Source: Demequina lignilytica | GTDB lineage: Bacteria; Actinomycetota; Actinomycetes; Actinomycetales; Demequinaceae | Reading direction: 5' to 3' | NCBI RefSeq assembly: GCF_030418305.1 | Contig: NZ_JAUHPX010000008.1 | Span: forward strand, 1 to 64,000 | DNA length: 64,000 nucleotides | Shown: one piece after another, positions 42,899 to 60,006 of the stretch | Layout of the letters: each line of letters starts with the position of its first letter | How positions within the stretch are numbered: position 1 is the stretch's first letter | The notes under the pieces: generated by a model | What the model was told of the DNA's origin: nothing | What the model saw: only the letters and a program-made list of their open reading frames with translations | The model's database searches: none | Made by a program: the position numbers and the translations under genes

Positions 42899-43459
42899 CT
42901 ACTGCGCGTCGACGTCGTCGGCGGCGCCCAGCCCGGTGCAGTCGACCTCCGTCACGTGGTGCGCGCTCAGGTAGTGCGCCGCGCCGCGCGAGCCGCCGAC
43001 CGTGGCGAGCAGCGGCCCGAGGTGCGCCCCGCCCACGAGCACCGGGTGTCCCGGGCTGCCACCGTCGTTGGCACGGGCCAGGACCGTCGGGTCGCCCGTC
43101 CACAGCGCGGCGACGCGGGTGACCGCCTCGGGCTCCAGGTGCGGCAGGTCCACGAGCGTCACCAGCACGGCCTGCGCGTGCACCGCGCGCGCCACCTCGA
43201 TCCCGGCGTGAAGGCTCGCGCCGATGCCCTCGCGCCAGCGCTCCGCGACCACGCCGTGGGCCCCGTGAGGCAGCAGGTGGCGCGCCTCCTCGGCGCCCGC
43301 GCCCAGCACGGCGATGACCGTGGAGCAGCCGGCGTCCGCGAGCAGCCCGCACGCGCGCGGGAGCCAGGCCCCCGCATCGTCCCGTGCCAGGGCCTTCGGC
43401 ATGCCGAAACGGGTGCCCGCACCCGCGGCGAGCACCACCCCGACCAGGCCTTCCGCCAT
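42899..43459 (-). CDS. MobA/MocA-like molybdenum-cofactor nucleotidyltransferase
   Basis: 186 aa. Begins GLVGVVLAAGAGTRFGMPKAL, the GlmU/MobA-type nucleotide-binding signature, and has VTLVDLPHL (metal-binding Asp) and GSPGHPVLVG. The MocA group makes the cytosine dinucleotide form of molybdopterin needed by xanthine dehydrogenases, and the xdh genes lie in this island. The start at 43459 is preferred over 43468 because the latter ATG overlaps the TAGGAT -10 box. Confidence 0.82.
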   Translation of the reverse strand: MAEGLVGVVLAAGAGTRFGMPKALARDDAGAWLPRACGLLADAGCSTVIAVLGAGAEEARHLLPHGAHGVVAERWREGIGASLHAGIEVARAVHAQAVLVTLVDLPHLEPEAVTRVAALWTGDPTVLARANDGGSPGHPVLVGGAHLGPLLATVGGSRGAAHYLSAHHVTEVDCTGLGAADDVDAQ

Positions 43460-43466
43460 GTCTCGC

Positions 43467-43476
43467 ATCCTAGGAT
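43467..43476. promoter_or_regulatory. Back-to-back -10 boxes in one palindrome
   Basis: ATCCTAGGAT reads TAGGAT on each strand. Rightward, 6 bases separate it from the OHCU decarboxylase ATG (43483). Leftward, 7 bases separate it from the mocA-like ATG (43459). Both genes would be leaderless and their promoters mutually exclusive. Confidence 0.7.
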
Positions 43477-43482
43477 GGAAGC

Positions 43483-43956
43483 ATGATCGAACCCACTCGG
43501 AACGACCTCCTCACGTGCCTGCGAGTCGAGCGCTGGGCGGACACGGTGGCGTCGCGCGCGTACGGGGGCATGCTCGAGCTCGAGCGGGCCGCCGTCTCGG
43601 CCGCGACGCCGTTGACGCCCACGGAGATCGAGGAGGCGCTCGCGGCGCACCCGCGGATCGGGGATCGCCGCGAGGGCGAGGATGCGGAGGCGCGGTTCTC
43701 CCGCGCCGAGCAGGCGTCCTCGGAGTCCGAGGACGAGGCGCTCGCGGCGCACCTGGCGGACCTGAACGCGCTGTACGAGAAGCGGTTCGGGCGCGTGTTC
43801 CTCATCCGCGCGGCCGGGCGGTCGCGTGCGGAGATCGTCGCCGAGCTCGAGAGGAGGCTCGGCAACGACGACGTGGCCGAGCTCGCGGAGGTCGCCGACC
43901 AGCTGCGCGGCATCGCCCTGCTGCGCCTGCGCCAGATCTATGGAGGTGAGTCATGA
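43483..43956 (+). CDS. OHCU decarboxylase
   Basis: 2-oxo-4-hydroxy-4-carboxy-5-ureidoimidazoline decarboxylase (UraD/PucL N-terminal type), 157 aa: forms S-allantoin. HPRIGDR carries the catalytic His; FLIRAAGRSRAEI and a helical bundle complete the family pattern. It overlaps the HIU hydrolase gene by 4 bases. Here it is separate from uricase, unlike the fused Bacillus PucL. Confidence 0.93.
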   Translation: MIEPTRNDLLTCLRVERWADTVASRAYGGMLELERAAVSAATPLTPTEIEEALAAHPRIGDRREGEDAEARFSRAEQASSESEDEALAAHLADLNALYEKRFGRVFLIRAAGRSRAEIVAELERRLGNDDVAELAEVADQLRGIALLRLRQIYGGES

Positions 43957-44273
43957 GCCACGTGACCACGCATGTGCTGGATTCCGTCCACGGCCGCCCC
44001 GCGGCCGGGCTGAGCGTGCGGCTGCTGCACGGCGACGTCGAGGTCGCCACGGGGGTGACGGACGCCGACGGCCGGGTGTCCTCCCTGGGTCCCGATCAGC
44101 TCCATGAGGGCACGTACCAGCTGGTCTTCGCCACGGGCGCCTGGTTCGCGGACCGCGGCATCGCGACGTTCTACCCCGAGGTGCGCATCGCGTTCGGGGT
44201 CGACGGTGACCCGCACTATCACGTGCCGCTGCTCCTCAGCCCCTTCGGGTACTCGACGTACCGGGGCTCCTGA
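43953..44273 (+). CDS. 5-hydroxyisourate hydrolase
   Basis: Transthyretin-like tetrameric enzyme (PucM/HiuH), 106 aa, that converts 5-hydroxyisourate to OHCU. N-terminal HVLDSVHGRPA, and the diagnostic C-terminal YRGS, are present; HYHVPLLLSPFGYSTYRGS completes the active site in outline. ATGA overlap with the OHCU decarboxylase. Confidence 0.96.
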   Translation: MSHVTTHVLDSVHGRPAAGLSVRLLHGDVEVATGVTDADGRVSSLGPDQLHEGTYQLVFATGAWFADRGIATFYPEVRIAFGVDGDPHYHVPLLLSPFGYSTYRGS

Positions 44274-52025: not shown

Positions 52026-54815
52026 TCATGAGCCGCGCTGCGAGGCCGCCCGCCAGACACGGTCGCGCGTCATCGGCAGCTCGTGCAGGCGCACCCCGAG
52101 GGCGCGACGGATCGCGTTCGCCATCGCGGGTGCCACCGGGTTGTACGGCGCCTCGGACATCGACTTCGCCCCCCGCGGGCCGAGCCGGTCTGACGTCGAG
52201 GCGAAGAGCACCTCGGTGACGGGAAGGTCGGCGATCTGGGGCACGCGGTAGACCCGGAAGGCGGGGTTGCCGACGGTGCCGTCCTGGTCGACCAGCACCT
52301 CCTCGTACAGCGCCGAGCCGATGCCCTGCGCCACGCCGCCCTCGATCTGGCCCCGCAGCTGCGCGGGGTTCATCACCACGCCGGCATCGGCCGCCTGGAC
52401 CGAGCGAAGGATGCGCACGGCGCCGGTCTCGGGGTCGACGGCGACGCGGAAGCCCTGGACGTTCCAGGCGAGCGAGCGCACGGCGCCGTCCTCCCGCCCG
52501 GTGCCGCGGACGCCGTCGGCGTCGCGGGTCTCGGCAGGTGCCGCGGCGATCAGGTCGGCGACGCCGACCCTGCGCTGGGCGCCGTCGAGAGAGACGGCGA
52601 CGGCGCCCAGCGGGTCGAGGGTCCACTCCACCCCGTCCCCATCCCGCGTGCCGGCCACCGCGGCGGCCGTCTCCAGCAGGATCCCCCTCAGGTCCATCGC
52701 GGCGGCGTGCACCGCCTTGCCGGCGATCACGACGCCGGTCGAGCCGTACGCGCCGGTGTCATGCTCCGTGGCATCCGTGTCGGACGCGACCAGGCGCACC
52801 CGGTCCGGGCTGGTGCCGAGGGCGTCCGCGGCGAGCTGCGTCTGCACGGTCTGGGTGCCGTTGCCGAACTCGGCGGTGCCGACCCTGACCACGTAGGTCC
52901 CGTCCGGAGTCGCGGACACCGACGCGGTCGCGTGGTGCCCGCGCGGCGGCGCCGTCGCGATCATCGCGAGCGCCATCCCCTCGCCGACCGCCCAGCCGTC
53001 GGGCACGGGGACGGCGGGCGCCGCATCGTCGCGCGCGAGCGCGTCCCTCACCAGGTCGAGGCACTCGTCGAGGCCGAAGGACCCGAAGATCAGGTCGTCG
53101 TGCGGCTCGAGCGAGGTGATCGCCAGCGGGTCGCCCGGTCGGACGGTGTTGACCCGGCGCAGCTCGAACGGGTCCATCCCGAGGGCCAGGGCCAGCTCGT
53201 CCATCGCGCACTCGATCGCGTGGATGACCTGCCCGAGCCCGTAGCCGCGGAAGGCGCCCGCGGGCACGGTGTTCGTGTAGACCGCCTCGGCGTCGACGCG
53301 CTTGGCGGGGGCGTTGTACGCGGCGACGGACTCCGAGCACCCGTGGAACAGCACGCCCGCGGCGTGGTTGCCGTAGGCGCCGGTGTTCGAGAGCACGTCG
53401 ACCTTCATCGCGGTCAGCCGGCCCTGGGCGTCCGCGCCGAGCGTCGCGGTCACGCGCATGGGGTGGCGCGTCGCCGTGCGCTGGAACTCCTCGGCGCGCG
53501 TCATCTCGTAGGCGACCGGGCGCCCGGTCGCGAGGACCGCGAGGCCCACGATGTCCTCGGTGAAGATCTCCTGCTTGCCCCCGAAGCCGCCGCCGAGCCT
53601 CCTGGTGAACACGCGCACGCGGTCGCGGTCCAGGCCGAGGACCACCGCGAGCTCGTCGCGGACCAGGAACGGCACCTGCGAGGAGGTGCGCAGCGTGAGG
53701 CGGCCGTCGTCGTCCAGCCAGCCGATCGACCCGTGGGTCTCGAGCTGTGCGTGGGTCACGCGTGCCGACGACCAGGTCCCCGTCGCCACGGCGGCCGCCC
53801 CGGCGAGGCCGGCGTCCACGTCCCCGTAGCCGCCGTGGATCGCGGCCACGACGTTGCGAGCCGCATCCGCGACCCCGTCCTCGGGCGTCGCGTCGGGATG
53901 GATCGACGGGGCGCCGGGGGTGCGGGCCTCCTCGGGATCGGTGACGTGGGGGAGCACCTCCCACTCGATCTCGATCAGGGCGCACGCCGCCTCGGCGATC
54001 GCGGCGGTCTCCGCGACCACGGCGGCGACCCGCTGACCGGCGAAGCGCGCGACGGAGTCGAGCAGCCGGGTGTCGCGGGGGTCGTCCAGGCGGTTCTGGT
54101 GCCTCCCGGTCGAGTAGCGCACCGCGGGCGCGTCCTCGTGGGTGAGGACGGCGACCACGCCGGCGAGCGCACGGGCGCGCGACGTGTCCATGGCGACGAT
54201 GCGCGCGTACGGGTGAGGCGAGCCCAGCACCTTGAGGTGGGTGAGGCCGGGCACCGCGGTGTCGAACGTGTACTCCTCGCGTCCCTGGACCACCGCGGTC
54301 GCGGCGGGCGGTCGCACGGAGGACCCGACGGCCGCGCCCGATCCGGGGCTGCAGACCCCGGGGCAGGAGCCGTCGACGCCGCAGCCGCGCACGCTGTGCT
54401 CGACCGCCTCGCGGATGGGCCGGTAGCCGGTGCAGCGGCACAGGTTGCCCTTGAGCCGGCGGTCCAGGTCGGGCAGGTCCTCCTCGGTCAGGGTCGACGC
54501 GGTCACCGTCATGCCGGGCGTGCAGAAGCCGCACTGGAACGCGAAGTGCTCGACGAAGGACTCCTGGACGGGATGCAGCTCGCCCTCGGGTGCGAGCCCG
54601 GCGGCGGTGGTGACCTCGCGGCCCTCGGCGCGCACGGCCGGGTAGATGCACGAGTGGACGGGCGTGCCGTCGACCAGCACGGTGCAGGCGCCGCAGTCGC
54701 CGGAGTCGCAGCCCTTCTTGACCTCCGTGCGGCCGTGCTCGCGCAGGAACGTCCGCAGGCACTGGCCGGGCGCGGGGATGCCGTCGAGGGGTGCGCCATC
54801 GGCGACGATGCTCAT
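52026..54815 (-). CDS. Xanthine dehydrogenase, fused 2Fe-2S and molybdopterin subunits
   Basis: 929 aa. Oxidises hypoxanthine and xanthine to urate. Residues 1-~150 are the iron-sulfur subunit: plant-type cluster ligands Cys36, Cys41, Cys44, Cys56 and the second cluster Cys95, Cys98, Cys126, Cys128. A Gly/Pro/Cys-rich linker (~145-175) leads to the large Mo-cofactor domain (~180-929) with [20 protein letters not shown] and a C-terminal [13 protein letters not shown] carrying the catalytic Glu. In most bacteria these are separate chains or the FAD domain is fused instead. ATGA overlap with the FAD-subunit gene. Confidence 0.92.
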
Positions 54816-59424: not shown

Positions 59425-60006
59425 ATGACCGAGTCGACGACGACGTCCGATGAGGGCGCCGCCCGGCTCGGCGCGCGCCTGCGGGAGCTCCGCCAGCAGC
59501 GCCGTATGACCCTGGTGCAGCTGGCGGCTGCGACCGATCTGTCGCATCCGTTCCTCAGCCAGGTCGAGCGCGGCCTCGCGAACCTCTCCCTCCCGTCGCT
59601 GCGGCGCATCGCGCGCGCGCTCGAGACCAGCCCCGTCGAGCTCATGGCCGCGGCCGAGTCGGACGATGCGCGCCGCCGCCGGGTCGAGGTCACCCGCGCC
59701 GCGGCGCGACGCCCGACGCCCGACGGCTTCGCGCGCGGGGTCGCCCAGGCGCTGGTCAAGGCGGGCCGGCCGTTCATGCCGATCCTGGTGGAGTCGGAGT
59801 CGGAGGATCCCGAGGAGCCGTTCGTGCACGCGGAGGACGAGTTCGTGCTGGTCCTCGACGGCAGGGTCGTGCTCGAGACCGACGGGCGTCGCCACGAGCT
59901 CGGGCCCGGGGACTCGGTCTACTTCGCCGGCGGGGTGCGCCACCGGGTCTGGTCGCAGGGCGGGCCGTACCGCCTGCTCGTCGTGAAGGAGCAGAAGGGG
60001 ACGTAG
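59425..60006 (+). CDS. XRE-family regulator with C-terminal cupin
   Basis: 193 aa; starts 1 base after the permease stop, so it is the last gene of the importer operon. Helix-turn-helix ~12-66 (LGARLRELRQQRRMTLVQLAAATDLS in outline, HPFLSQVERGLANLSL) and a cupin barrel ~110-185 (HAEDEFVLVLDGRVVLE, GPGDSVYFAGGVRHRVW) that probably binds the effector. PuuR-like proteins have this build. It is a good candidate for the factor that reads the shared purine sites. Confidence 0.9.
   Translation: MTESTTTSDEGAARLGARLRELRQQRRMTLVQLAAATDLSHPFLSQVERGLANLSLPSLRRIARALETSPVELMAAAESDDARRRRVEVTRAAARRPTPDGFARGVAQALVKAGRPFMPILVESESEDPEEPFVHAEDEFVLVLDGRVVLETDGRRHELGPGDSVYFAGGVRHRVWSQGGPYRLLVVKEQKGT

Follow-up and report, generated by a model that had tools for sequence, protein, structure and literature searches.

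How the start signals of two divergent genes can fit between start codons separated by 23 bp is the question raised by a junction in Demequina lignilytica, which lies in a 64,000-nucleotide stretch of DNA (hereafter the window; part of G000:C17). On its right, uraD (43483–43956, + strand) encodes OHCU decarboxylase (OHCU_decarbox, 2.4e-35; UraD_2 just over the curated cut-off), and its stop codon is overlapped by a hydroxyisourate hydrolase gene (43953–44273, + strand), likely on the same transcript. On its left, a gene here called mocA (42899–43459, − strand) encodes a MocA-like or MobA-like NTP transferase (PF12804, 1.3e-25); the nicotine-blue-oxidoreductase, MocA and PucB models also match this protein, with scores well below their cut-offs. 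A sequence-only reading had proposed that one palindrome serves as the −10 box of both genes, that both genes are leaderless, and that, with polymerase in one direction at a time, their expression may be balanced reciprocally.

The pair is surrounded by uricase, allantoinase, allantoate amidohydrolase, XdhC-type and xanthine-dehydrogenase-type genes, and hence the region is a purine-breakdown cluster, in which the MocA-like protein plausibly serves a molybdenum enzyme. A single frame of 929 amino acids with 2Fe-2S and molybdopterin domains of the xanthine-dehydrogenase type (52026–54815, − strand) is apparently a fusion of the small and large subunits. A gene for an HTH-cupin protein, a candidate regulator, also lies inside the cluster (59425–60006, + strand).

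The element under study, ATCCTAGGAT (43467–43476, without assigned strand), forms the middle ten positions of a palindrome that is perfect over 12 bp, CATCCTAGGATG (43466–43477), and it fits the frame ANNNTANNNT. As had been read from the sequence, TAGGAT appears on both strands. On the + strand (43471–43476) it is followed by six bases, GGAAGC (43477–43482), and then by the uraD ATG at 43483; on the − strand (43467–43472) it is followed by seven bases, GCGAGAC (43460–43466), and then by the mocA ATG at 43459. These hexamers, the predicted −10 elements of uraD and mocA respectively, overlap with TA in common, and the −10 places −11 (A) and −7 (T) are filled on both strands. TANNNT at six to seven bases from the start codon (N6 or N7 below) is therefore found for mocA and for uraD of this species, and the predicted start sites would be the A of each ATG. 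By eye, no clear −35 element was seen in either direction at 43467–43476. The longest mocA open reading frame begins at 43468, 9 bases upstream of 43459; this start was set aside and 43459 was preferred, because 27 of 27 aligned genomes (our own and 26 relatives) have a start codon at this position.

Palindromy as such was rejected as a remarkable feature, since the 64-kb window contains 66 perfect palindromes of 12 bp, besides 190 of 10 bp. Exact ATCCTAGGAT has one copy in the 2.9-Mb genome, with about 0.3 expected from base composition by our own arithmetic. With one mismatch or fewer allowed, it has a single match in the window, and at least one such match was obtained in 27 of 100 shuffles. 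The informative feature is the leaderless spacing of ANNNTANNNT to both start codons: TANNNT at N6 or N7 from a start on both sides had a frequency of 0.0007 in random 23-bp spacers of window composition and of 0.0037 in shuffles of the spacer itself. However, once the mocA half is in place, its uraD counterpart amounts to one more correctly placed T (T frequency in the window, 0.139), and a single sequence thus gives weak evidence for it. On a separate matter, ANNNTANNNT is scarce in the window, with 5 occurrences observed and 22 expected from composition, and in 464 kb (the window and a sample of the related genome G027) it occurs 33 times compared with 80 for TNNNTANNNA. Avoidance of stray promoters is perhaps the cause of this scarcity.

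The spacing of six or seven bases is meaningful in Demequina. Among 268 genes in 400 kb of D. sediminis (G027), TANNNT precedes in-frame starts at N6 in 31 cases and at N7 in 10 cases, 41 in all, versus about 1.2 for each other offset, where the background comprises offsets 0 to 29 with 6 to 8 left out. Among 45 genes of the window, the corresponding numbers are 4 at N6 and 5 at N7 (9 in total). All of these figures are gene-offset counts on a simple list of genes based on open reading frames, as distinct from an annotation. According to PMC3160421, about a fifth of actinobacterial genes are predicted to be leaderless, with TANNNT lying approximately 12 bases ahead of the start, and switches from TA to Shine-Dalgarno signals or the reverse have been traced across related genomes. 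Each side of the present junction resembles the actinobacterial leaderless genes of PMC3160421 and PMC3898074 in having TANNNT at N6 or N7 before ATG, but differs from them in that a single 10-bp element combines two leaderless signals.

Conservation was followed in relatives. A mocA match, weak and broken in the case of G351, was found in 32 of 44 genomes of the genus, and a uraD match in 37 of 59 genomes including our own. The comparison set comprised the 27 Demequina genomes, own genome included, in which the genes are divergent neighbours and the junction is readable. The mocA half (TANNNT-N6/7-ATG) is present in all 27, and also in four of four further mocA copies without adjacent uraD. 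The uraD half (TANNNT-N6-ATG) is present in 10 of the 27 (G000, G007, G014, G015, G024, G032, G034, G035, G346 and G350). In these 10 genomes the element reads ATCCTAGGAT (four genomes), ACCCTACGAT (four), ATTCTAGGAT (one) or AGTCTAGGGT (one). Besides the A, T, A, T frame, place 4 (C) and place 8 (G) are invariant, and the remaining four places vary; one genome has 8 of 10 symmetric positions, and five genomes have 6 of 10. The gaps to the two start codons measure N7/N6 or N6/N6, and the predicted start sites are 24 bp apart, or 23 bp in G014 and G035. A kept frame with lost symmetry is what would be expected of two −10 elements sharing TA, and not of an operator.

Genomes in which the pair has been rearranged give additional information. 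In G016, where the two genes are about 5 kb apart, and in G018, where they are about 34 kb apart, each gene has its own TANNNT at N6 or N7 only, and the other half is absent in four of four gene copies. Conversely, G036 (L130) and G348 (L131) carry the full ATCCTAGGAT intact with no uraD match beside mocA, which indicates that the right half is able to persist without uraD; these two cases may reflect recent uraD loss or chance. By eye, the stretch to the right of ATCCTAGGAT in L130 and L131 resembles a decayed uraD start.

The other 17 of the 27 genomes have a different junction, with a Shine-Dalgarno sequence before uraD and the motif CATRCTG beginning at the mocA start codon. This motif occurs in 17 of 17 Shine-Dalgarno-led genomes and in 0 of 10 genomes with both halves. 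In 12 of the 17, the 23-bp gap is kept and the right half is replaced by a Shine-Dalgarno sequence (TAGGGAGG, TAAGGAGG or TAAGGAGA); in the other 5, the gap is about 60 bp and AGGGGAG stands before GTG. Moreover, G033, which has no mocA match, retains CATACTGG and GGGAGG before uraD, suggesting that CATRCTG belongs to uraD. Judged from its position, CATRCTG may be the uraD −10 element of the Shine-Dalgarno-led species, and if CATRCT does act as their −10, the two start sites would be about 10 bp apart by our own arithmetic. The mutual exclusion of CATRCTG and the uraD half (17 and 10 genomes) represents 2 supported independent contrasts, which places significance out of reach.

In the window, the weakly Shine-Dalgarno-like AGGATGG (43472–43478, + strand) takes the place of AGGGAGG, AAGGAGG or AAGGAGA in the 12 sister species, and CATGTCT (43457–43463, + strand), without T at the −7 place, takes the place of CATRCTG in the 17 Shine-Dalgarno-led relatives. 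Calculated with an assumed anti-Shine-Dalgarno sequence, the duplex energy is −6.4 in the window versus −8.2 to −11.6 in the Shine-Dalgarno-led relatives. This energy was rejected as a criterion for sorting the two forms cleanly, because three genomes with the shared form score like Shine-Dalgarno-led genomes in the same calculation (G350, −10.2; G014 and G035, both −8.4).

The placement of the window's own species makes the history of the junction more complex. On a tree of joined UraD and MocA proteins, our genome (G000) falls inside a clade supported at 100/100 with 12 Shine-Dalgarno species, in all of which the uraD half is missing and a Shine-Dalgarno sequence is present, and a second tree of the 27 genomes gave the same placement. 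A tree that holds the 12 species together apart from G000 was not rejected (AU test, p 0.257). The shared form in G000 was thus either regained, if the species is nested among the 12, or retained, if it is their sister. Eight other genomes with both halves form a separate supported group (100/99). Simple inheritance of an identical ATCCTAGGAT from the ancestor of the genus was set aside as less than established, given the position of G000 among the 12 species on both trees, although the tree separating it from them was not rejected. Jointly, G000 differs from the 12 in three respects, namely the absence of CATRCTG (CATGTCT instead), a weaker Shine-Dalgarno duplex and TAGGAT at N6, and this combination supports, at the level of sequence, a leaderless uraD in this species.

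Taken over the 27 genomes, the proposal of one element acting as the −10 of two leaderless genes stands for mocA and is less sure for uraD here. The mocA half in all 27 genomes, both halves in 10 and the genomes with separated genes speak for it, and support for the mocA side of the predicted shared promoter is good. For this species, use of the uraD side is more likely than not but less certain, because the nearest relatives are Shine-Dalgarno-led. We consider it probable that ATCCTAGGAT is a bidirectional promoter core of the known 23-bp class, giving leaderless mRNAs both ways with slight basal competition. The observations can also be arranged so that mocA alone is driven from the element as a leaderless gene, and uraD is transcribed from further left, within the stretch where mocA starts, its translation relying on a weak Shine-Dalgarno sequence (AGGA), the right half having arisen by chance from Shine-Dalgarno decay. 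The 12 nearest species speak for this arrangement, as their CATRCTG is placed as the −10 of a short-leader uraD transcript ahead of AGGGAGG, AAGGAGG or AAGGAGA, and G033 retains CATACTGG and GGGAGG before uraD without a mocA match. In addition, AGGA in the window is well spaced and could act as a weak Shine-Dalgarno, and the uraD half hangs on that one T once the mocA half is given. However, the window has CATGTCT, which lacks T at the −7 place, and a weaker Shine-Dalgarno; 9 other genomes, 8 of them in the separate supported group, have both halves at N6/N7; and in G016 and G018 the uraD half persists although mocA is not adjacent. On this balance, we regard an element that drives mocA alone as unlikely.

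The symmetry of the site further invites the explanation that the palindrome is the operator of a dimeric regulator repressing both genes, instead of or besides a pair of −10 elements. Such a regulator might bind a dyad that is perfect over 10 bp and separates two divergent genes of the same pathway, and the HTH-cupin gene of the same cluster could encode it. An operator whose dyad is conserved at each base and recurs at other promoters of the pathway was, however, rejected. The site has no second copy in the window within one mismatch and one exact copy in the genome, and hence shows no sign of a regulon. In five of the 10 genomes with both halves, only 6 of 10 positions are symmetric, yet the A, T, A, T frame and its spacing to both start codons are maintained, and the separated genes each retain a half-site in TANNNT geometry. 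An operator is therefore most improbable as the explanation of this element.

In the preferred bidirectional core, two −10 hexamers (TANNNT) of the housekeeping sigma factor would overlap at the central TA on opposite strands, and RNA polymerase would bind ATCCTAGGAT in either direction. In both directions, transcription would then start on the A of the ATG or at most one base away, producing leaderless mRNAs of mocA leftward and of uraD with hydroxyisourate hydrolase rightward, which would be translated from their first codons. Palindromy would be a by-product of the A, T, A and T required at four places. As for regulation, each direction would initiate independently at a low level and the two would hardly compete at rest; competition may occur only when one direction is strongly activated.

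Reciprocal balancing of mocA against uraD, with polymerase in one direction regularly shutting out the other, had been part of the sequence-only reading, and this part does not hold well. Its basis is physical: the predicted polymerase footprints overlap, and simultaneous occupancy is in principle impossible. Strong activation of one direction can indeed repress the other in E. coli, as reported in PMC12825309, where suppression was seen solely under strong activation. In the same paper, however, none of the five E. coli bidirectional promoters examined was active enough at basal level for polymerases to compete, and lowering one direction barely affected the other. At the present junction, no strong −35 was seen by eye, and 17 of 27 genomes manage without the shared form, which is thus not indispensable. 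The MocA-like protein presumably acts in molybdenum-cofactor maturation of xanthine dehydrogenase, and UraD, as we assume, in urate breakdown, which would place both in one pathway. Since both products belong to one pathway, as judged from known pathways, co-expression is the simpler expectation, and together with the lack of an evident −35 by eye this makes independent low-level expression the better default. A reciprocal switch is accordingly given little credence.

The junction resembles a small-scale example of a two-way promoter type that was recognised recently. Promoters of this type, bidirectional and with a symmetric −10 element, were reportedly described by Warman, Grainger, Wade and colleagues in Nature Microbiology in 2021. 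They are an established kind in PMC12825309 (NAR, 2026) and PMC10268837 (Microbiology, 2023); a start-site distance of 18 bp predominates, and distances of 10 and 23 bp are also common. Likeness to this class lies in the overlapping −10 elements on opposite strands, in the key A and T on both strands, and in divergent protein genes linked in function. The predicted start sites here are 23–24 bp apart, compared with the known distances of about 10, 18 or 23 bp, for which small shifts are allowed. Two features are different: both predicted start sites fall on start codons, so that the mRNAs would be leaderless, and the host is GC-rich with ANNNTANNNT as the conserved part of the element.

A second comparison is offered by Mycobacterium tuberculosis, in which 'closely juxtaposed divergent promoters' are a common feature according to PMC3898074. 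For the adjacent divergent genes prpD and Rv1129c, the same paper gives start sites mapped to start codons and an increase of both genes in starvation. The arrangement is like that of the present pair, for which start sites at the start codons are predicted, and by analogy the joint rise of prpD and Rv1129c speaks against reciprocity as a necessary property of pairs like these. Among the matches listed from the open-licence literature, none dealt with bacterial bidirectional promoters that are leaderless on both sides.

If the bidirectional reading is true, all transcription and translation start signals of a divergent pair fit in 10 common bp and two short gaps, and the start mode of a gene may be switched by one base change. 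The locus is a natural series within one genus, comprising shared, split, Shine-Dalgarno-replaced and uraD-less states. It bears on whether polymerases compete at bidirectional promoters of low strength in bacteria other than E. coli, and on switching between leaderless and Shine-Dalgarno-led translation.

Occurrence of the same architecture elsewhere was surveyed with the frame CAT-N7-ANNNTANNNT-N6-ATG. In a first set, 11 of 35 genomes matched. In the class, 170 of 296 genomes matched, versus 106 of 296 for a composition-matched TNNNATNNNA control; by eye, many of the TNNNATNNNA matches listed are AT-rich and come from family f44. Within the 296, the 27 genomes of the order gave 26 matches, versus 0 for the TNNNATNNNA frame and 2 for the backwards pattern (our own count). 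Over 59 genomes of the order, 34 matches in 23 genomes were found, versus 16 in 9 genomes at a wrong spacing, and this order-wide control is only about twofold lower. At 38 matched places (L045–L082), open frames of at least 60 codons were present on both sides in 18 and on at least one side in 33. A survey of shared pairs over 464 kb gave 2 of 33 for ANNNTANNNT, versus 2 of 99, 0 of 80 and 0 of 141 for controls; one of the 2 is our own junction, and the other (L092) has a doubtful right-hand frame, for which reason little weight is placed on this survey. Doubly leaderless shared promoters are probably widespread, to judge from these pattern counts, which amount to some 0.6 to 1 matches in each genome for a single spacing, part of them due to chance as the controls suggest.

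A more general proposal is that the doubly leaderless frame (start codon-N6/7-ANNNTANNNT-N6/7-start codon), in which about 23 bp hold all start signals of two genes, is a recurring and selected architecture in Actinomycetes. The present junction would then alternate between a shared-TA form (start sites 23–24 bp apart, leaderless uraD) and a form with CATRCTG at the mocA start (predicted start sites about 10 bp apart, Shine-Dalgarno-led uraD), with mocA always leaderless. Both would be geometries of the bidirectional class. We put this proposal forward tentatively, and with more doubt than belief.

Several matched places were inspected, some of which have the look of conserved gene pairs, and their genes were named from reading of the sequences by eye, as distinct from a family search. 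Near position 1501 of L063 and L064, genes for a ThiL-like kinase and a small lipoprotein diverge from ANNNTANNNT at leaderless spacing, and a near-identical junction is present in a third genome (G160:C1:1397060-1397088). Near position 1501 of L048 and L051, from Demequina genomes G001 and G004, a YbaK-like and a uridine-kinase-like gene diverge from AGCATAAGGT or AGCATAGGGT at N7/N6. In addition, G362 contains four near-identical copies of CATGCCTTACATTATA(A/G)CATGAAAGAATG, which suggests a repeated element carrying such a junction.
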